The translations under genes were made by a program, and so were the position numbers. A stretch of DNA of 23,613 nt from a virus. Shown here piece by piece: positions 3,598-22,512 of the stretch. Numbering within the stretch: the first letter of the stretch is position 1; every line of letters begins with the position of its first letter. The DNA lies in the IMG/VR virus record IMGVR_UViG_3300025864_000054, positions 1-23,613 of that record. One strand, given 5' to 3'. The notes under the pieces were generated by a model. It had not been told where the DNA came from and ran no database searches. It saw nothing but the letters and a program-made list of their open reading frames with translations.

Positions 3598-5610
3598 ATG
3601 GCTAACTGGTTACAACGACTGCGTGGCAAGAGTGAGGTATTGGGCGCTGTTGCCTTCAACGATATTATGTCTGTCCTCTATCCAGACAAGGGGCAAGCCA
3701 TTATCACCGACGCTCGAACGGGTGTAGACAAATCCGTGTGGGTGTATCGTGCAGTTTCAACGGTTTGCACCCGCATTGGCTCCCTACCGTGGCACCTTTA
3801 CTCTGGTGACAAAATCCACACAGGCGATGACGCTGTTTTCACTAGACCCAACCCCAACCAAACAGGTACGGAGTGGGTTGAACGTATTATTGCGTGGGAA
3901 CTGCTCAATGGAACTGGCATGGTCTATGCAGAGAAACCCCTTGCACTGGGACTTACTGTACTGGATGCCGATATGTTGCGCTCTGACCATGGGAACCTAG
4001 TATACCGTGAACTTAGCCCAACTGGAACGCCTACTGACCGTCAACTGGATAAGTCGCGTATTGTGCTGTTCCCCAACTTCAGCATCACTGGACAATTGGG
4101 ATTGAGCGAACTACGTCCGATTCTTGATACCGCCAACATGGACGAGGGCGCGAAGCAAGTCTGGAACAACCAGATGTCCTCAGGTGGTGCCTTAGCCGGA
4201 CTGATGACCACCGACTTCAAGTTGACGGGGCCGGAATTGATGGCGGCGAAGAAGGCATGGGAGGAAAAGTATTCGGGTATTCAGAAGGCGGGCGGCATTG
4301 GCTGGCTTTCTGCTGGTTACCACTTTGAGAAACTGGGAATCTCAGCAGCAGATCTGAAACTGTTGGAAGTCTCGAAGGTAACTCGCGAGGAAATCGGGGC
4401 GGCGTTCGGAGTGCCTGGCGTGTTTTTGAACGATACGCAAAGCGTGGACTACAGCAACGCTCAGACGCAAGAGCGCATCCTCTACTCGAATACCATTATC
4501 CCCAAAGCTGACAGACTAGCGGACCGGATTACCACGTTCCTGTTGCCGCTGTTGCCAGGACTGAAGGGGCTGACGTTCCGGTTTGACTATACCGGTATTG
4601 AGTGTCTACAGGTCAACCGGCTAGAGCGGGCGCAGAGTGATGAGATAGAGTTCCGTTCCGGAAAGCTGACCATCAACGAGGCGCGGATACGGGATGGATT
4701 GAAGAAGGTTGCGTGGGGCGATGTGTACTGGGCGTCCGCTATGTTGGTTCCCATTACGACCTCTGACCTTCCCGAGCCGCCCCCACCTGTTGCGCTTCCT
4801 GCAACAACCCCGGCAGATGTTCCTGTTGTGCCACCCGCCGTGCCACCTGATGCCAATTCTGGCCCCGTGGCTGAGCCGAAGGGGTTCAAGGCGTTGCATA
4901 GTCCGGAAGCGCGACAATTGATTGGCAAATCGTTCCTGTCGCGTACTGCCCCGCAGGAAAAGAAGTTCATGCAGACGACAATGGGTGTGTTCCATAAGCA
5001 AGAGAAACGCATCATTGCATGGCTGGATGGGCAGAAAGCGGTCAAGGTTCCTGTTGAGATATTCGATGAGGTAGAGATGCTTGCCGAATGGAGGCCGCTG
5101 TTCCTTGCGTTTGGTATGGCCTCTTCTGAGGCGACTGCCGCAAGGTATGAATGGGCCGTAGTTGACCCATCGGTCATCAAGAGATGGATTGACTCTCGGG
5201 GCGCGAAGTACAGCAAGTATGTCAATGAGACATCAAACAACGAGATCATGAACATTCTTGCGTCCGACCGTGCCAATGGGTTGTCCATTCCCGACATGGT
5301 GAATCACATCAAGGGTTATTTCGATGTGAACGCCAAGTCTCGCGCTGAAGCAATTGCCCGCACGCAGGTAATAGGCGCGAACAACTATGCCGATGTAGAG
5401 ACATACAAGGCCAATGGCGTAGAGAAAAAGGAATGGCTGGCCACTGGCGATGACCGCACAAGAGACTCACACGCTGCGGCAGATGGTCAAGTCGTTGGCG
5501 TAAATGAGCCATTTATCGTAGGCGGTTCAAGTTTGCAATATCCCGGTGATCCAGACGGCCCCGCTGAAGAGGTTGTCTCATGCCGGTGCACAGAAATTCC
5601 GGTCATATAG
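3598..5610 (+). CDS. portal protein fused to a MuF-like minor head protein
   Basis: This 670-aa protein combines two head proteins normally made separately. Residues about 1-400 look like an HK97-type portal: KSVWVYRAVSTVCTRIGSLPW early, and the signature VSKVTREEIGAAFGVPGVFL near 260-285. A Pro/Ala/Val-rich linker (about 390-425) follows. The C-terminal ~100 residues resemble the phage Mu gpF / SPP1 gp7 head morphogenesis domain, with SRAEAIARTQVIGANN, then TRDSHAAADGQVV and a final EEVVSCRCTEIPVI. The portal dodecamer is the DNA channel and the motor docking site; MuF-type proteins are minor capsid components. AGGAG at 3589-3593 precedes the ATG well. The fusion is read in one uninterrupted frame. 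Confidence 0.9.
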   Translation: MANWLQRLRGKSEVLGAVAFNDIMSVLYPDKGQAIITDARTGVDKSVWVYRAVSTVCTRIGSLPWHLYSGDKIHTGDDAVFTRPNPNQTGTEWVERIIAWELLNGTGMVYAEKPLALGLTVLDADMLRSDHGNLVYRELSPTGTPTDRQLDKSRIVLFPNFSITGQLGLSELRPILDTANMDEGAKQVWNNQMSSGGALAGLMTTDFKLTGPELMAAKKAWEEKYSGIQKAGGIGWLSAGYHFEKLGISAADLKLLEVSKVTREEIGAAFGVPGVFLNDTQSVDYSNAQTQERILYSNTIIPKADRLADRITTFLLPLLPGLKGLTFRFDYTGIECLQVNRLERAQSDEIEFRSGKLTINEARIRDGLKKVAWGDVYWASAMLVPITTSDLPEPPPPVALPATTPADVPVVPPAVPPDANSGPVAEPKGFKALHSPEARQLIGKSFLSRTAPQEKKFMQTTMGVFHKQEKRIIAWLDGQKAVKVPVEIFDEVEMLAEWRPLFLAFGMASSEATAARYEWAVVDPSVIKRWIDSRGAKYSKYVNETSNNEIMNILASDRANGLSIPDMVNHIKGYFDVNAKSRAEAIARTQVIGANNYADVETYKANGVEKKEWLATGDDRTRDSHAAADGQVVGVNEPFIVGGSSLQYPGDPDGPAEEVVSCRCTEIPVI

Positions 5611-5630
5611 CCATGGTCAAGGGAACGCAT

Positions 5631-6191
5631 ATGACTGTTGAATCAAGGGCATTGATCTCGAAAGCGAATCTTGGAAAGCATATGTCCATGAGTGCGAGAG
5701 AGAAGATTGCCGCCGCTAAGTTTGGGCACATTGTATCTGAGGAAACAAGGCAGAGGATTAGCGCGGGCAGGAAGGGGATACCTTGCTCAGAAGCGGCAAA
5801 AGAAGCTACTCGCAAATTGCACACTGGGGAACGCAAGTCGGCAGAGACTCGGGCGAAAATGTCTGCCCATCAACTGGGGGCGGGCAATCATCAATGGAGG
5901 GGCGGGGTCACACCAGAAGAGAAGGCGGCGCGGAATCGCCCGGAGTATGCTGCGTGGCGCACCGCCGTATTCGAGCGCGACGATTATACCTGTCCAATTT
6001 GCAACAAGCGTGGGGCTGATCTTGAGGCGCACCATATTCAGAACTTTTCGGCGCACAAAGATGAACGCCTTGATGTTGCAAATGGCGTGACGATGTGTGT
6101 TCCATGCCATGAACGATTCCACCTGATTTTTGGCAAGAGGCACAATACCCTGCAAGAATTGCAGACGTTTGTAATGGCACTGGAGGCATGA
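5631..6191 (+). CDS. HNH homing endonuclease with NUMOD3 repeats (upstream of protease)
   Basis: The N-terminal half holds several NUMOD3-like DNA-binding motifs (pattern S.E.R.KIS.A..G, for example SEETRQRISAGRKG and SAETRAKMSAHQLG). The C-terminal HNH nuclease has CPIC, EAHH and MCVPCHERFH, giving two CxxC zinc pairs around the catalytic HH. Such proteins nick or cut a specific DNA site to spread their own gene. Start ATG 5631 has AAGGGA 7 bp upstream; in-frame ATGs at 5613 and 5580 lack a ribosome binding site and 5580 overlaps portal. It inserts cleanly between portal and protease. It is a clear paralogue of the HNH gene on the other side of the protease. Confidence 0.9.
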   Translation: MTVESRALISKANLGKHMSMSAREKIAAAKFGHIVSEETRQRISAGRKGIPCSEAAKEATRKLHTGERKSAETRAKMSAHQLGAGNHQWRGGVTPEEKAARNRPEYAAWRTAVFERDDYTCPICNKRGADLEAHHIQNFSAHKDERLDVANGVTMCVPCHERFHLIFGKRHNTLQELQTFVMALEA

Positions 6192-6192
6192 C

Positions 6193-6891
6193 ATGGACGC
6201 TACACAAATGAAGCGCTTTTACTTTCCCGTTATCAAAGGTGAGACGATAGGCAATATCTCGTCTTGCATTATCACGACAAACGCACTCGATCGCCAAGGG
6301 GAAATTGTAGAGCCGGATGGCGCGAGCCTGGAAAACTACATGAGCAACCCTGTTGTCCTCTATGGTCACGCCTATCAGGGTATGGAGTCTATACCCGTTG
6401 GTCGCGCCATCTCTATGGAGATTTACCATGAAGGCGACACAAAGGGTATCCGGGCAAGCTGGGAGTGGCAGCAAGACGATGTTACCCCGCTTATCTCGGC
6501 AGTTCACAAAAGCTGGGAGAGGGGTTTCATTAATACCGCCTCTATTGGTTTTCTGGCGAACGAGTATCAGGAAAATCACGTTGCCAAGTGGGAGATGCTA
6601 GAGTACAGCCTCGTTCCTGTTCCCGCTAACCCAACGGCCCTGAGAATCAATGGGTTCACGGATGGCGAAATCAAGGCGCTCGGGGTTGATGTGACACCCG
6701 AAACGCTGATTGCTGACCTTGAAGCCTTGGTTACGACCAAGGAGGGGCGCGTGTTGTCGGCTAAGAACCGCACCCTTATTTCAGATTGTGTTTCATCGCT
6801 GAACGCCTTGCTTGCTGCTTCCGACACGACCGAGCCGAAAGCTGAATCATGGCTTGAGGTGTTGTATAAGGAGTTTGTGGGAAACAAATGA
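6193..6891 (+). CDS. prohead protease (HK97 family)
   Basis: This 232-aa protein fits the HK97 prohead protease family, which cleaves the scaffold/capsid N-terminus during head maturation. Expected catalytic residues are visible: His59 in VVLYGHAY, Ser117 in NTASIGF, and an acidic partner at Glu137 in MLEYSLVPVPANP, a hallmark segment. LDRQGEIVEPDG near the start is also typical. The gene is followed, within an ATGA overlap, by an HNH endonuclease that separates it from the major capsid gene it serves. The last ~80 residues are probably a self-processed helical tail. Confidence 0.92.
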   Translation: MDATQMKRFYFPVIKGETIGNISSCIITTNALDRQGEIVEPDGASLENYMSNPVVLYGHAYQGMESIPVGRAISMEIYHEGDTKGIRASWEWQQDDVTPLISAVHKSWERGFINTASIGFLANEYQENHVAKWEMLEYSLVPVPANPTALRINGFTDGEIKALGVDVTPETLIADLEALVTTKEGRVLSAKNRTLISDCVSSLNALLAASDTTEPKAESWLEVLYKEFVGNK

Positions 6892-7400
6892 AGCCTTTGG
6901 CATTGAGGGGACATAGATTGACCGAAGAGAACAAGGCCGCATTGTTAAAGTCACACCTTGGAATTAAGCAATCCCCCGAATGGAATGCCCACAATGCCGC
7001 ATCGCGTACGGGTCCGCTTAGTCATAATTGGAAGGGCGGGGTTACCCCACAAAAAGAGCTTATCCGAGCAAGCGCGCCCTATGCAAATTGGCGCACTGCC
7101 GTGTTTGAACGCGACGATTTCACCTGTGCAATTTGTGGTGAGCGCGGCAAGAAACTGCAAGCACATCACACGGATTGCTTTGCAGATTTTCCAGAGAAGC
7201 GATTGGACGTGGATAACGGTATCACGTTCTGTGTGGACTGCCACAAACAATTCCATCTTCAGTATGGAACAAGACACAATCGCCGGTGGCAGGCCGATGA
7301 GTTTGTGCTAGAGGCACTGAGCAAGAGTACGCCAGGAGGCGCGCAGCCCATGCCATTAGATGATTTATTTGCAACGTTAGAAGTTGAGCAAGTGACCTAG
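6888..7400 (+). CDS. HNH homing endonuclease (downstream of protease)
   Basis: A 170-aa paralogue of the HNH gene at 5631. The shared blocks are GGVTP, a WRTAVFERDD stretch, CxIC, AHH, RLDV.NGxTxC and the CHxxFH end. It has only one short NUMOD3-like element at the N-terminus (LTEENKAALLKSHLG), so its recognition module is reduced. The nuclease core carries CAIC, QAHH and CVDCHKQFH. ATG 6888 overlaps the protease stop (ATGA); AAGGAG lies 14 bp upstream, a loose spacing, so translation may depend on coupling. A ~40-residue extension past the HNH core ends with an acidic segment. Confidence 0.9.
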   Translation: MKPLALRGHRLTEENKAALLKSHLGIKQSPEWNAHNAASRTGPLSHNWKGGVTPQKELIRASAPYANWRTAVFERDDFTCAICGERGKKLQAHHTDCFADFPEKRLDVDNGITFCVDCHKQFHLQYGTRHNRRWQADEFVLEALSKSTPGGAQPMPLDDLFATLEVEQVT

Positions 7401-14612: not shown

Positions 14613-14915
14613 GTGGTAGTCATCACGGTTCTGAAAGTTCCGAAAAAGCTCCTGGAGGTGTATGCTGGCGCGGATGGGATCATTCCCAGCGGGATTACCT
14701 TGACCCCAAAGGGCGACGGGTTCCGCAAGCTGGAAGTGATGATTCAGGAAAAGATGTCTCGGTATCGGACGCGTCTTGTTCTTGCCCATGAACTCTATCA
14801 TTGCTTCCAACACCTGACTGATTGTGCAATGGAAGAAAAGAACAGCAACGAAATTGACGAAGTAATGGTGGCGGCACTCGTGGAAAAGAAGCGGAGACGT
14901 CATGGTCCTGCTTGA
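14613..14915 (+). CDS. small HExxH metallopeptidase-like protein
   Basis: A 100-aa protein with LVLAHELYHCFQHL (His59-Glu60-His63), the HExxH zinc-protease motif, followed by SNEIDEVMVAALVE where an acidic residue (Glu80 or Glu83) could be the third zinc ligand. This resembles the core of ImmA/IrrE-type peptidases, but much shortened. Substrate unknown; ImmA-type enzymes usually cleave repressors. GTG 14613 follows AGAAGG (14597-14602) at about 10 bp. Its end overlaps the phosphoesterase gene by 14 bases, so the two are co-translated. Confidence 0.65.
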   Translation: MVVITVLKVPKKLLEVYAGADGIIPSGITLTPKGDGFRKLEVMIQEKMSRYRTRLVLAHELYHCFQHLTDCAMEEKNSNEIDEVMVAALVEKKRRRHGPA

Positions 14916-15939: not shown

Positions 15940-16029
15940 ATGTCAAGTCGTTCCACCTTTAGGCATAAACCTTAGTATTTATGGAGCAGAACGGCACTAT
16001 CCGATAGAATTATTCACCTTTCGTTATGC

Positions 16030-16057
16030 TTGCATTCCCCGCTATATGTGGTATAAT
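16030..16057 (+). promoter_or_regulatory. extended -10 promoter of the endonuclease VII gene
   Basis: TTGCAT (16030-16035), 16-bp spacer, TGG and TATAAT (16052-16057). The predicted start at about 16064 lies inside the longer open frame that begins at 16046, so translation should begin at ATG 16109 instead. Confidence 0.8.
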
Positions 16058-16063
16058 AAATAT

Positions 16064-16108
16064 AGCAATCCAAGAGTCATCAGTGTTCGGATTGTTGGAG
16101 AGTGTGAC
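16064..16108 (+). promoter_or_regulatory. 5' leader hairpin of the endonuclease VII mRNA
   Basis: The predicted transcript starts with AGCAATCC (16064-16071), which pairs with GGATTGTT (16089-16096; one G-T pair) around a 17-nt loop. The ribosome binding site GGAGAG follows directly at 16097. A 5'-terminal stem at +1 is shared with the leaders at 20767 and 21971, but the sequence and the loop are different here, and a loop-to-tail pairing is only 4 bp (GTCA/TGAC). Confidence 0.5.
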
Positions 16109-16519
16109 ATGGAAGATTTTGAGAGAGAGGGTCGGAACGCATATATGCGGGAATATCGGAAAACACCAAACGGCAAGATCGCCGTTGCGAAAGCGCAAAA
16201 GAAACACTATCGGGCGCATCCAGAATACAATGCCAACTATGAAAAATTACACGCCTATGACATGGCGCTCCGTAGACAGGGATTGACGACCGATGACTAT
16301 GCCGAAATGTTCATTGCACAGGGTGGCAAGTGCGCCTCTTGTGGAAAGGAACCGCCGCTCCGTGCGGGCAAACCTTGTCGCCTGTGCGTAGATCACGACC
16401 ATAAGACCGGCAAGGTACGCGGACTTCTGTGTTGGCGGTGCAACATGGCACTGGGAAACGTAGACGACAGCCCCGAGACGCTTCAGAAGTTGCATGACTA
16501 CTTGACGCACTCTGCGTAA
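16109..16519 (+). CDS. recombination endonuclease VII-like nuclease
   Basis: This 136-aa protein matches the phage endonuclease VII family, which resolves branched DNA such as Holliday junctions during packaging and also appears as free-standing mobile nucleases. The zinc pairs are CASC (Cys75, Cys78) and CWRC (Cys108, Cys111), and the catalytic segment VDHDHKTGKVRGLLC (94-108) is the hallmark. The C-terminus ends LQKLHDYL as in the family. N-terminal residues 1-50 are basic and repetitive (REYRKTPNGK, HYRAHPEY), probably for DNA contact. ATG 16109 is chosen because it lies downstream of the predicted transcript start and after GGAGAG. Confidence 0.9.
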   Translation: MEDFEREGRNAYMREYRKTPNGKIAVAKAQKKHYRAHPEYNANYEKLHAYDMALRRQGLTTDDYAEMFIAQGGKCASCGKEPPLRAGKPCRLCVDHDHKTGKVRGLLCWRCNMALGNVDDSPETLQKLHDYLTHSA

Positions 16520-17263: not shown

Positions 17264-17292
17264 TTGCCGCAGTTACAACATTGTGCTATACT
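17264..17292 (+). promoter_or_regulatory. promoter upstream of the early-type operon
   Basis: TTGCCG (17264-17269), 17-bp spacer, TGC and TATACT (17287-17292). An inverted repeat GTGCTA (17283-17288) / TAGCAC (17302-17307) spans the -10 and the start point and could be an operator. An intrinsic terminator follows within 50 bp. Confidence 0.65.
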
Positions 17293-17310
17293 AAAACGGC
17301 GTAGCACCTT

Positions 17311-17339
17311 CCCCTACTTCGGCAAGAGTGGGGGTTTTT
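17311..17339 (+). terminator. intrinsic terminator just after a promoter
   Basis: CCCCTACT (17311-17318) pairs over 8 bp with AGTGGGGG (17327-17334; one T-G pair), loop TCGGCAAG, followed by TTTTT (17335-17339). With the promoter at 17264 it would yield a ~41-nt RNA unless polymerase reads through into the operon starting at 17531. Confidence 0.85.
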
Positions 17340-17383
17340 CTATACCCGCTCATCACTGTGAAGATTGTCTTCATATTGTGTCA

Positions 17384-20732: not shown

Positions 20733-20760
20733 TTGACTTGCAACACTTTTGTGGTATAAT
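20733..20760 (+). promoter_or_regulatory. extended -10 promoter of nuclease cassette 1
   Basis: TTGACT (20733-20738), 16-bp spacer, TGG and perfect TATAAT (20755-20760). The predicted start, 7 bases after the -10, is G20767, exactly the first base of the leader's closing stem. Confidence 0.85.
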
Positions 20761-20766
20761 AAATAT

Positions 20767-20852
20767 GGCAGCTAGTGCGGCTTTATAACCCGCGCGAATA
20801 CGGACTCAATCCCGCCGCTGCCACAGTCAAAACGATTGAGAAAGGATTGAGT
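20767..20852 (+). ncRNA. pseudoknotted leader RNA 1 of a nuclease gene (candidate)
   Basis: P1 GGCAGC/GCTGCC (20767-20772/20817-20822); P2 GTGCGG/CCGCGC (20775-20780/20790-20795); P3 CGG/CCG (20801-20803/20812-20814) with loop ACTCAATC (20804-20811). The loop is complementary over 7 bases to GATTGAG at 20834-20840 and over 8 bases to GATTGAGT at 20845-20852, two tandem copies around the AAAGGA ribosome binding site. A homologous leader is at 21971. The complementarity is seen directly; a regulatory role is inference. Confidence 0.7.
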
Positions 20853-20859
20853 GAGAGAC

Positions 20860-21378
20860 ATGAGACTAGGAAGTCATCAAACAGAAGAATCCAAGGCAAA
20901 GAATTCCATGGCGCACCTAGGGCGTACCATGTCCCCGAGTGCGCGGGCAAAGATATCTGCGGCAAACGCCGGAAAATCTTTATCACCCGAGACTCGAGCA
21001 AGAATATCTATGGCACAAATGGGGAATGGGAATTGCCTTGGACAACACTGTTCAGATGAAACCAAAGCAAAGATTTCTGCCGCAAACAGTAATCCATCTG
21101 CTGAGACTAGAGCAAAGATTTCATTAGCGCGCTGGAAAGGTGGCAAGCAGATAAACAACGCCAAAATGCACGCTAAGCGCCGCATTCTTGGCTTTACTTC
21201 CCTAAACTCTTGGTTTAAGGGTTGCGAAGGCCACCATGTAGACAACGAACTGGTTATCTTCATTCCTAGAGAACTTCATTGCAGCATCTCACACAATCAG
21301 TGGACCGGTCGCAACATGGCCGTCATCAATTCTCTAGCATTTGAATGGTTGGCAAAGGAGGAACAATGTCAACTTTAG
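20860..21378 (+). CDS. homing endonuclease-like protein with NUMOD3 repeats (cassette 1)
   Basis: A 172-aa protein with at least three NUMOD3-like DNA-binding motifs in the first 90 residues (SPSARAKISAANAGK, SPETRARISMAQMG, SDETKAKISAAN, SAETRAKISLARW). The C-terminal ~70 residues are a compact His-Me-finger-type domain with GCEGHHVD (His125, His126), IPRELHCSISHN and INSLAFEWL. The same C-terminal domain is in the protein at 22066, with a different N-terminal module. ATG 20860 is used because it aligns with the start of cassette 2; an in-frame GTG at 20851 lies closer to AAAGGA (20841-20846) and may be the real start. Confidence 0.8.
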   Translation: MRLGSHQTEESKAKNSMAHLGRTMSPSARAKISAANAGKSLSPETRARISMAQMGNGNCLGQHCSDETKAKISAANSNPSAETRAKISLARWKGGKQINNAKMHAKRRILGFTSLNSWFKGCEGHHVDNELVIFIPRELHCSISHNQWTGRNMAVINSLAFEWLAKEEQCQL

Positions 21379-21524
21379 ACACATTGCAATTACGCAAGCA
21401 CGACTTGCGGCAAGACCTTGTCCACACAGCTAAAACCTATGGCAAGGCTGCCAGGGAGACGACGAAGGTGTGGCATAAGATACAAGAGGTCCAGCGGGCA
21501 GAGAACTATCTGAGGCGAGCGTGA
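21366..21524 (+). CDS. small basic helical protein (52 aa)
   Basis: A 52-aa helical, charged protein (LDTLQLRKHDLRQDLVHTAK, KAARETTKVWHKIQE, AENYLRRA). A strong AAGGAGG (21355-21361) precedes ATG 21366, which lies 13 bases inside the end of the upstream nuclease, so it is well expressed and probably co-transcribed with it. The stop overlaps the next GTG start. Function unknown; it resembles small helical phage early proteins. Confidence 0.65.
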   Translation: MSTLDTLQLRKHDLRQDLVHTAKTYGKAARETTKVWHKIQEVQRAENYLRRA

Positions 21525-21808
21525 GTGAGGAATTGTTCCCTGAACCGCTTAAGCCCTTGGAATGTTGGGATCCCGAGACGGGCGATTTTGTGATTGGGGC
21601 ACATGGCTGGTTTCAGCGATCGCCCGTTTATGGCCCCGATAGGGCGGGCAAGTATTGGGCACTCTATGGAGATAAAGAGGGGCCGGACAATCATTGCTTT
21701 GTCTGCGTGTCCTCTGCCCCTACAGGGGAATATGCTCTTGCTTGCCCTCCAGGGGACACATGGGAGAGGAAAAAGAGATTGCCCTCTAGCATTAACCGCG
21801 ATTTGTGA
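21521..21808 (+). CDS. hypothetical protein (95 aa)
   Basis: A 95-aa protein rich in Pro, Gly, Trp and Tyr (ECWDPETGDFVIGAHGWFQR, AGKYWALYGDKEGPDNHC) with cysteines in CFVCVSS and ALACPPGD. It starts at GTG 21521 within GTGA, overlapping the previous stop, which supports a translationally coupled pair. No known motif. The C-terminus is basic (ERKKRLPSS). Between its end and the next promoter (21809-21936) there is no gene; a GTTGCC/GGCAAC inverted repeat spans 21838-21871. Confidence 0.55.
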   Translation: MSEELFPEPLKPLECWDPETGDFVIGAHGWFQRSPVYGPDRAGKYWALYGDKEGPDNHCFVCVSSAPTGEYALACPPGDTWERKKRLPSSINRDL

Positions 21809-21936
21809 ACCCGCCAATGCTAGACTGCGTTCTGAGTAGTTGCCAAATATGCACATACCCCCGGAAGGCAACAACAGAGGATTCATCTGTGGTTCAACCC
21901 CACCATACGGGGGGCGGTATACGGTACACTGCTGCC

Positions 21937-21964
21937 TTGCACCGCGAAGCCTTTGTGGTATACT
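21937..21964 (+). promoter_or_regulatory. extended -10 promoter of nuclease cassette 2
   Basis: TTGCAC (21937-21942), 16-bp spacer, TGG and TATACT (21959-21964). The predicted start, 7 bases after the -10, is G21971, the first base of the leader's closing stem, as in cassette 1. Confidence 0.85.
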
Positions 21965-21970
21965 AATAAC

Positions 21971-22056
21971 GGCGGCTAGTGTGGGAATGATCCCCTGCAC
22001 GACACTGGACCTGACCCCAGGCCGCCACATATCAGAAAGGTCAGGAAGGGCCAGGT
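21971..22056 (+). ncRNA. pseudoknotted leader RNA 2 of a nuclease gene (candidate)
   Basis: Homologous to 20767-20852: P1 GGCGGC/GCCGCC (21971-21976/22021-22026); P2 GTGTGGG/CCTGCAC (21979-21985/21994-22000, two wobble pairs); P3 CTGG/CCAG (22005-22008/22017-22020) with loop ACCTGACC (22009-22016). GGTCAGG (22039-22045) is complementary to 7 loop bases; a second copy, GGCCAGGT (22049-22056), is complementary with one mismatch and overlaps the AGGTG ribosome binding site. The TA between P1 and P2 is identical in both leaders, while all paired positions have drifted with compensation. Confidence 0.7.
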
Positions 22057-22065
22057 GAAAAACAA

Positions 22066-22512
22066 ATGTCTGCATATAACAAAATCGTTCAAGCACAGTA
22101 TTATGTAGATCATCGTGAAGAAAGAAAGGCATGCAGATTGGCTTACTATGCTACCCATCGAGAAGAAGAAAAAGCAAGGGGGCGGGTCTGGTATGCTCTG
22201 CATCGAGAGCAAGGAAAGGCCACTAGTATGGCTTGGGAAAAGGGCCATCCTGCTCAGGTTGGAGCCTGGCGCACCATCCATCCAGAAAAATTGCGTCTAT
22301 ATGCTGCCAAGCACAAAGCAAAACGCCGTACGCTTGGCTTTGTGCCAATGAATACATATTTTGAGGGCTGCGAGGCTCATCATCTTGACCATGATCATAT
22401 TGTCTACATGCCAAAAGCTTTACATCGCAGCATTTTCCATCGACAGCGTGACGGTCAGGGCATGGAGAAAATCAATGCTCTGGCCCTTCAATGGCTAGCA
22501 CAAAACCCATGA
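22066..22512 (+). CDS. homing endonuclease-like protein with HREE repeats (cassette 2)
   Basis: A 148-aa protein whose last ~65 residues match the C-terminal domain of the cassette 1 nuclease: GFVPMNTYFEGCEAHHLD (His105, His106), MPKALHRSIFHR, INALALQWL. Its N-terminus is different: a tandem repeat with a 15-residue period, HREERKA (16-22), HREEEKA (31-37), HREQGKA (46-52), HPAQVGA (61-67), likely helical and possibly the DNA-reading module. ATG 22066 follows AGGTG in the leader. The stop overlaps the initiator gene as ATGA. A homing nuclease role is inferred from the His-Me-finger domain and from its sister gene. Confidence 0.75.
   Translation: MSAYNKIVQAQYYVDHREERKACRLAYYATHREEEKARGRVWYALHREQGKATSMAWEKGHPAQVGAWRTIHPEKLRLYAAKHKAKRRTLGFVPMNTYFEGCEAHHLDHDHIVYMPKALHRSIFHRQRDGQGMEKINALALQWLAQNP

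Follow-up and report, generated by a model that had tools for sequence, protein, structure and literature searches.

Structured leader RNAs before phage nuclease genes, with one loop complementary to two tandem partners

Glutamine (glnA and Downstream-peptide) and tetrahydrofolate (THF) riboswitches are compact junction RNAs with a long-range pairing that is able to reach the ribosome binding site (RBS). In the phages T4 and Aeh1 the RBS of the homing endonuclease genes for I-TevI, I-TevII and I-TevIII, and of segB and mobE, is sequestered by RNA structure, with a promoter nearby (PMC2988022). Pseudoknots in 5' untranslated regions (5'UTRs) control translation initiation at T4 gene 32 (PMC3014915) and, as a standby pseudoknot, at tisB (PMC7708055). 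Here we describe two leader RNAs that precede nuclease genes in a viral contig of 23,613 nucleotides (nt) (IMG/VR record IMGVR_UViG_3300025864_000054; the whole stretch is called the window), together with their relatives in other phages. The loop of one leader helix is complementary to two tandem copies downstream, of which the second lies at the Shine-Dalgarno (SD) sequence. As judged from sequence comparison, the leaders belong to an undescribed structured-RNA family.

As in T4 and Aeh1, RNA would hide the RBS of a phage endonuclease gene, and a promoter is close by. The T4 and Aeh1 structures are simple hairpins, whereas the window family combines a loop-tail pseudoknot with a decoy copy that would compete with the SD. 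The late promoter of I-TevI removes the structure, whereas the own promoter of the window genes includes all of it. T4 gene 32 and tisB are one gene each, with a single pseudoknot partner and gp32 or S1/30S as the binder, whereas the window family is common to unrelated genes and has tandem partners. The HEARO/OMEGA RNA of IscB is likewise a structured RNA 5' of an HNH-type nuclease gene, but the window leaders match no Rfam family, precede small open reading frames (ORFs) of 148-172 amino acids (aa) in which no RuvC match was found, and carry the SD of the mRNA. The leader is likely a new variant of the cis-acting translational leaders, outside the known riboswitch classes and with a putative switch.

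A leader family with three helices and covarying loop-tail pairs

Both leaders were found where the sequence-only reading had placed them and share the plan that it described, with helices P1, P2 and P3 being the minimum-energy fold of each (z = -2.8 and -3.2). That reading had also claimed compensatory changes in every helix. Between the two window leaders this holds for one pair each of P1 and P3 and for four of the seven pairs of the loop with copy 1, but the changes in P2 are one-sided; across 12 leaders, double changes occur in all six P2 pairs.

Searches that started from the window leaders brought about 25 more to light, in related phage contigs of IMG/VR. The contigs were reached via terminase and the GHH domain, and leaders were gathered by blastn, by inspection of the regions upstream of ORFs and with R1, a covariance model based on 12 leaders. 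A loose structural descriptor matched everywhere and was superseded by the covariance model and a blind design scan. Applied to 1914 candidate starts in the window and its relatives, the scan found the design before both window nuclease starts; the only other window match was on the reverse strand, counted at two adjacent start codons, and shuffled controls gave 6 matches in 3828. As the sequence-only reading had predicted of a covariance-model search in phage and metagenome sequence, further homologues stand before nuclease genes and their loop-tail pairs covary.

Comparison of the leaders establishes all of the helices. RNAalifold, given an alignment of 12 sequences, returned exactly P1, P2 and P3 unaided, with double changes at 10 of the 15 pairs. 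In the nested helices of these 12 leaders 90% of cells are paired and 32 are double-changed, values reached in none of 500 shuffles, and slid registers were all far worse than the true one. For the loop and copy 1, 95% are paired and the covariation score is 0.877, against 0.336 when shuffled (0/500 as high). We extended the pairing analysis to 21 leaders (19 distinct), with the register set by eye, which favors pairing. P1 is 100% and P3 98.4% paired in this set. The loop pairs with copy 1 at 99.3% of positions with 52 double changes (shuffle maxima 81% and 28), and with copy 2 at 97.0% with 49 (shuffle maxima 82% and 28), so that both alternative pairings are supported. Leaders paired with their own copies at 99% and 96%, compared with 67% and 68% when copies were swapped between leaders (maximum 81% in 10,000 swaps), which excludes chance as the source of the loop-copy pairing.

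Near-identical phages (contigs G007 and G008) carry leaders L059 and L060, which differ by one P1 base (GGTGTC and GGTGGC) that breaks one P1 pair.

Beyond the related contigs, blastn of the leader against named phages and plasmids gave no match, and the exact promoter-plus-leader pattern was absent from viral_contigs. A conserved-tail pattern occurred in 36 stretches of viral_contigs, family leaders being among them only in already known phage records; the covariance model scored the 32 others at chance level. As a rough negative control, R1 at E <= 1 found nothing in two prokaryotic genomes (3.9 and 3.7 Mb; 150 candidates scored per genome). A GHH-domain search of the genome collection gave two distant relatives, in a WOR-3 metagenome-assembled genome and in Methanoperedens, both without leaders.

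Table 1. Features of the two leaders and their genes in the window
Feature	Position	Strand	Detail
Leader 1 promoter	20733-20760	+	-35 TTGACT 20733-20738; 16-nt spacer; -10 TATAAT 20755-20760
Leader 1 RNA	20767-20859	+	before ORF at 20860; sequence, fold, covariation
Leader 1 P1	20767-20772/20817-20822	+	
Leader 1 P2	20775-20780/20790-20795	+	
Leader 1 P3	20801-20803/20812-20814	+	
Leader 1 loop	20804-20811	+	ACTCAATC
Leader 1 linker	20823-20833	+	
Leader 1 copy 1	20834-20840	+	GATTGAG; partner of loop positions 2-8
Leader 1 copy 2	20844-20852	+	GGATTGAGT; partner of loop positions 1-8 and one P3 base
Nuclease 1	20860-21378	+	172 aa, free-standing endonuclease; NUMOD3 motif (1.9e-15), C-terminal GHH domain
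Leader 2 promoter	21937-21964	+	weak -35 TTGCAC 21937-21942; -10 TATACT 21959-21964
Leader 2 RNA	21971-22063	+	before ORF at 22066; sequence, fold, covariation
Leader 2 P1	21971-21976/22021-22026	+	
Leader 2 P2	21979-21985/21994-22000	+	
Leader 2 P3	22005-22008/22017-22020	+	
Leader 2 loop	22009-22016	+	ACCTGACC
Leader 2 linker	22027-22038	+	
Leader 2 copy 1	22039-22045	+	GGTCAGG; perfect partner of loop positions 2-8
Leader 2 copy 2	22049-22056	+	GGCCAGGT; loop positions 1-8, A-C mismatch at position 6
Nuclease 2	22066-22512	+	148 aa, free-standing; C-terminal GHH domain

Promoter, SD overlap and the balance of the two copies

A -10 box, matching TATAAT at five or more of six positions in 24 of 25 leaders, stands 11-15 nt 5' of the first P1 base, which places the expected transcription start at P1 or close to it. 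The matches to a -35 box range from perfect to poor. Both window leaders have the -10 box at -12 from P1 (6/6 in leader 1, which also has a 5/6 -35 match, and 5/6 in leader 2), in agreement with the earlier prediction that each leader begins at the transcription start.

In all 23 leaders for which the start is set, copy 2 falls within, or overlaps with, an SD-like stretch, AAAGG...GUGA, 3-9 nt before the start. The proposed overlap of the second copy with the RBS is thus borne out across the family. In window leader 1 copy 2 sits within the SD stretch AAAGGATTGAGTGA, and in leader 2 it contains the SD (AGGTGA). The structure is able to cover the RBS, where the pairing of copy 2 with the loop rests on covariation. 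The proposal that both tandem copies are complementary to the P3 loop holds in both window leaders, apart from the single mismatch in copy 2 of leader 2.

The distance between the starts of the two copies is 9-12 nt, except in L057, where it is 19. The register is constant, copy 1 facing loop positions 2-8 and copy 2 positions 1-8. Because copy 2 pairs one more loop position, it gains one A-U pair (-1.2 kcal/mol) over copy 1 in most leaders, and for the majority the two pairing energies are no more than about 1.2 kcal/mol apart. Copy 2 is the stronger partner in 17 of 22 distinct sets and the weaker in 4; in window leader 1 it is stronger by 1.2 kcal/mol. Its longer linker may offset part of this advantage. 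Where the two copies differ, pairing with the loop is preserved in six of eight differences, five of which exchange A and G opposite U. This is expected if copy 2 must serve both as SD and as loop partner.

A possible two-state switch and its alternatives

We favor, as the probable reading of these sequences, a cis-acting, near-isoenergetic two-state translational switch that free-standing nuclease genes carry together with their own promoter. Transcription would start with P1 itself, at its first base. Together with P3, P1 would display the 8-nt pyrimidine-rich loop, a built-in anti-SD with two mutually exclusive partners. Pairing with copy 2, the SD region, would hide the SD and turn translation off; given the complementarity of loop and SD region, this pairing should block binding of 30S. 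Pairing with copy 1, a decoy some 10 nt upstream, would leave the SD free and translation on. Since in most leaders about one A-U pair separates the two pairings, the RNA would be near-bistable and translation low but not zero. Copy 1 lies clear of the SD and yet keeps strict pairing, which suggests that the SD-open state is functional; it would not need to be kept if selection were for repression alone. Such a role is plausible, because the endonucleases of T4 and Aeh1 are held down by RBS-sequestering structures (PMC2988022). The homologues strongly support the choice between copies at the RBS put forward in the sequence-only reading; we infer interconversion of the two states in the cell, which of them would dominate, and a purpose in limiting or timing nuclease synthesis.

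A more elaborate version, which we offer tentatively, is a kinetic timer. During transcription the loop would pair first with copy 1, so that the first ribosomes find the SD open; branch migration to the slightly stronger copy 2 would then shut translation, giving one pulse of nuclease per mRNA. With its two tandem copies the RNA would be a pulse generator that needs no ligand, and it would spread as a cartridge from one selfish nuclease gene to another.

Several observations weigh against a balanced switch or limit its reach. Copy 1 is the stronger by 2-4 kcal/mol in 4 of the 22 sets, including window leader 2 (3.9 kcal/mol), and therefore not every leader is balanced. SD strength differs among leaders. 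Two caveats attach to the covariation tests: the leaders are related by descent, and the two copies are alike, so that the tests of copy 1 and copy 2 are not independent. Finally, all members of the family come from metagenomic phages that are related to each other and form a limited set.

The near equality of the two pairing energies would also suit a constitutive attenuator, in which the loop, swapping quickly between the copies, just keeps translation at a low rate and shields the mRNA 5' end, with neither sensing nor timing. The leaders have no conserved sensor domain, members without P2 have just one hairpin, and low expression by itself could suffice for a homing endonuclease. We regard this as the less likely account, but one to be taken seriously; by itself it leaves unexplained why a copy 1 that pairs as well as copy 2 is retained in every leader.

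That the three-way junction binds a metabolite, with the loop-tail pseudoknot as expression platform in the manner of the glutamine or THF riboswitches, seems improbable. The likeness that the sequence-only reading saw is one of architecture only, a three-way junction whose loop-to-tail pseudoknot reaches the SD. Conservation is fair for UA in J1/2 and for GA in J2/3, and close members have UCA in the linker. But the linker bases are lost in the diverged L043, L117, L125 and L203, P2 is dispensable, being absent from L048 and L127-L129, and the genes downstream have no common metabolic pathway and include no metabolic gene. The family has no conserved ligand core, and its one loop has two partners. 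A cmscan of the window against Rfam at E <= 1 matched no family, the glutamine, THF and guide-RNA families included, and in 19 related loci the only matches were three that are put down to chance, all below threshold and to unrelated families, none of them in a leader.

5'UTR pseudoknots can be protein sites, as in T4 gene 32 (PMC3014915) and tisB (PMC7708055), and a phage or host protein (the nuclease itself, a single-stranded-DNA-binding protein or S1) might bind the pseudoknot and control translation, much as gp32 does on its own mRNA. We consider this quite unlikely, for the loop and copies vary freely in sequence; autoregulation in particular is disfavored because the same leader precedes unrelated nuclease families and non-nuclease genes, whereas a general protein such as S1 may still be the binder. 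Least likely by far is a guide RNA or DNA-level element whose variable loop, adjoining nuclease genes as guide RNAs do in other mobile elements (compare the OMEGA and bridge RNA systems), directs the nuclease to DNA, given that copy 2 is always at the SD, that some leaders precede non-nuclease genes, that NUMOD3 repeats give nuclease 1 its own DNA-binding part and that Rfam guide-RNA families gave no match.

Nuclease genes and exchange of leaders

The window contains terminase, portal, major head, endolysin and replication-O genes. Nuclease 1 matches the homing endonuclease family phrog_314. It aligns with nuclease 2 over the C-terminal GHH domain only, with 47% identity there. Nuclease 2 matched nothing in Pfam, PHROG or NCBIfam, and a protein search of viral_contigs and named phages gave no match. 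The window has five nuclease genes in 23.6 kb (5580-6191, 6888-7400, 16109-16519, 20860-21378 and 22066-22512), an unusually heavy load of what are likely homing endonucleases.

Across the family the genes behind the leaders encode GHH, endonuclease VII, HNH and HNH_5 nucleases and a 70-aa ORF of no assigned family. By their motifs the downstream genes are probably homing endonucleases (NUMOD3 and the PHROG match in the window, other nuclease families elsewhere), with a minority of non-nucleases. Leader 1 and a leader in contig G007 are 92% identical over window positions 20748-20860, a span that takes in the -10 region and ends with the start codon, where homology stops; the ORFs that follow are unrelated, encoding a GHH nuclease and endonuclease VII, respectively. 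The leader therefore moves as a cartridge between unrelated nucleases.

The P2-less leaders keep the tandem copies behind a single hairpin with the loop CCCAACCC or CTCACCC. The genes behind them encode a GHH nuclease, a proteasome-like protein (PF00227, 1.6e-5) and a 105-aa protein that is similar to the window ORF at 14613, which itself has a weak, below-cutoff M78/IrrE match; the leaders before non-nuclease genes are at L127:53-123 (-), L129:157-227 and L128:148-211. In contig G002 (L028:9764-9930) a leader whose two copies are both perfect lies immediately 5' of repO, and no nuclease ORF is present; it may be left over from a nuclease gene since lost, or may have been reused for repO. No loop is common to two leaders of one contig, but by our estimate from loop recurrence between contigs fewer than one identical pair was expected anyway, and this proves nothing about diversification within contigs.

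Other leader designs were seen before nuclease genes. At L022:11555 (-) and L071:1043-1095 (+) a 12-bp hairpin with a 6-nt loop (CTATCC, CTAGTC) is followed by a small hairpin whose stem holds the SD and whose loop (GGATAG, GACTAG) is fully complementary to the first (fold z-scores -5.1 and -4.6). In L199, upstream of the ATG at 494 of a GHH nuclease gene, an 8-bp hairpin lies right after a TATAAT box, and its loop ACCAGTC is complementary to a single copy, GACTGGT, directly before the start. A third nuclease gene of the window, endonuclease VII-like (region 16024-16519), has the same TGTGGTATAATAAATAT promoter core with another short leader, in which a CAATCC...GGATTG hairpin is just 5' of the SD. 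Elsewhere in the window (17277-17340), promoter-like TTGTGCTATACTAAAA is followed about 30 nt later by a terminator-like hairpin and T-run, an arrangement kept in relatives (L024:18966, L026:2500 (-), L028:5188) that could encode a small RNA.

Control of potentially harmful free-standing phage endonucleases has been known mainly from T4-like phages, and largely as simple hairpins. The leaders described here add, in other phages, an RNA family supported by covariation in which one loop has two competing partners, one of them the SD, and which has been swapped between unrelated nuclease genes. The family can seed a new Rfam entry and provides a two-state RNA device that can be tested directly; if the switch is real, it would also be a tunable expression element.
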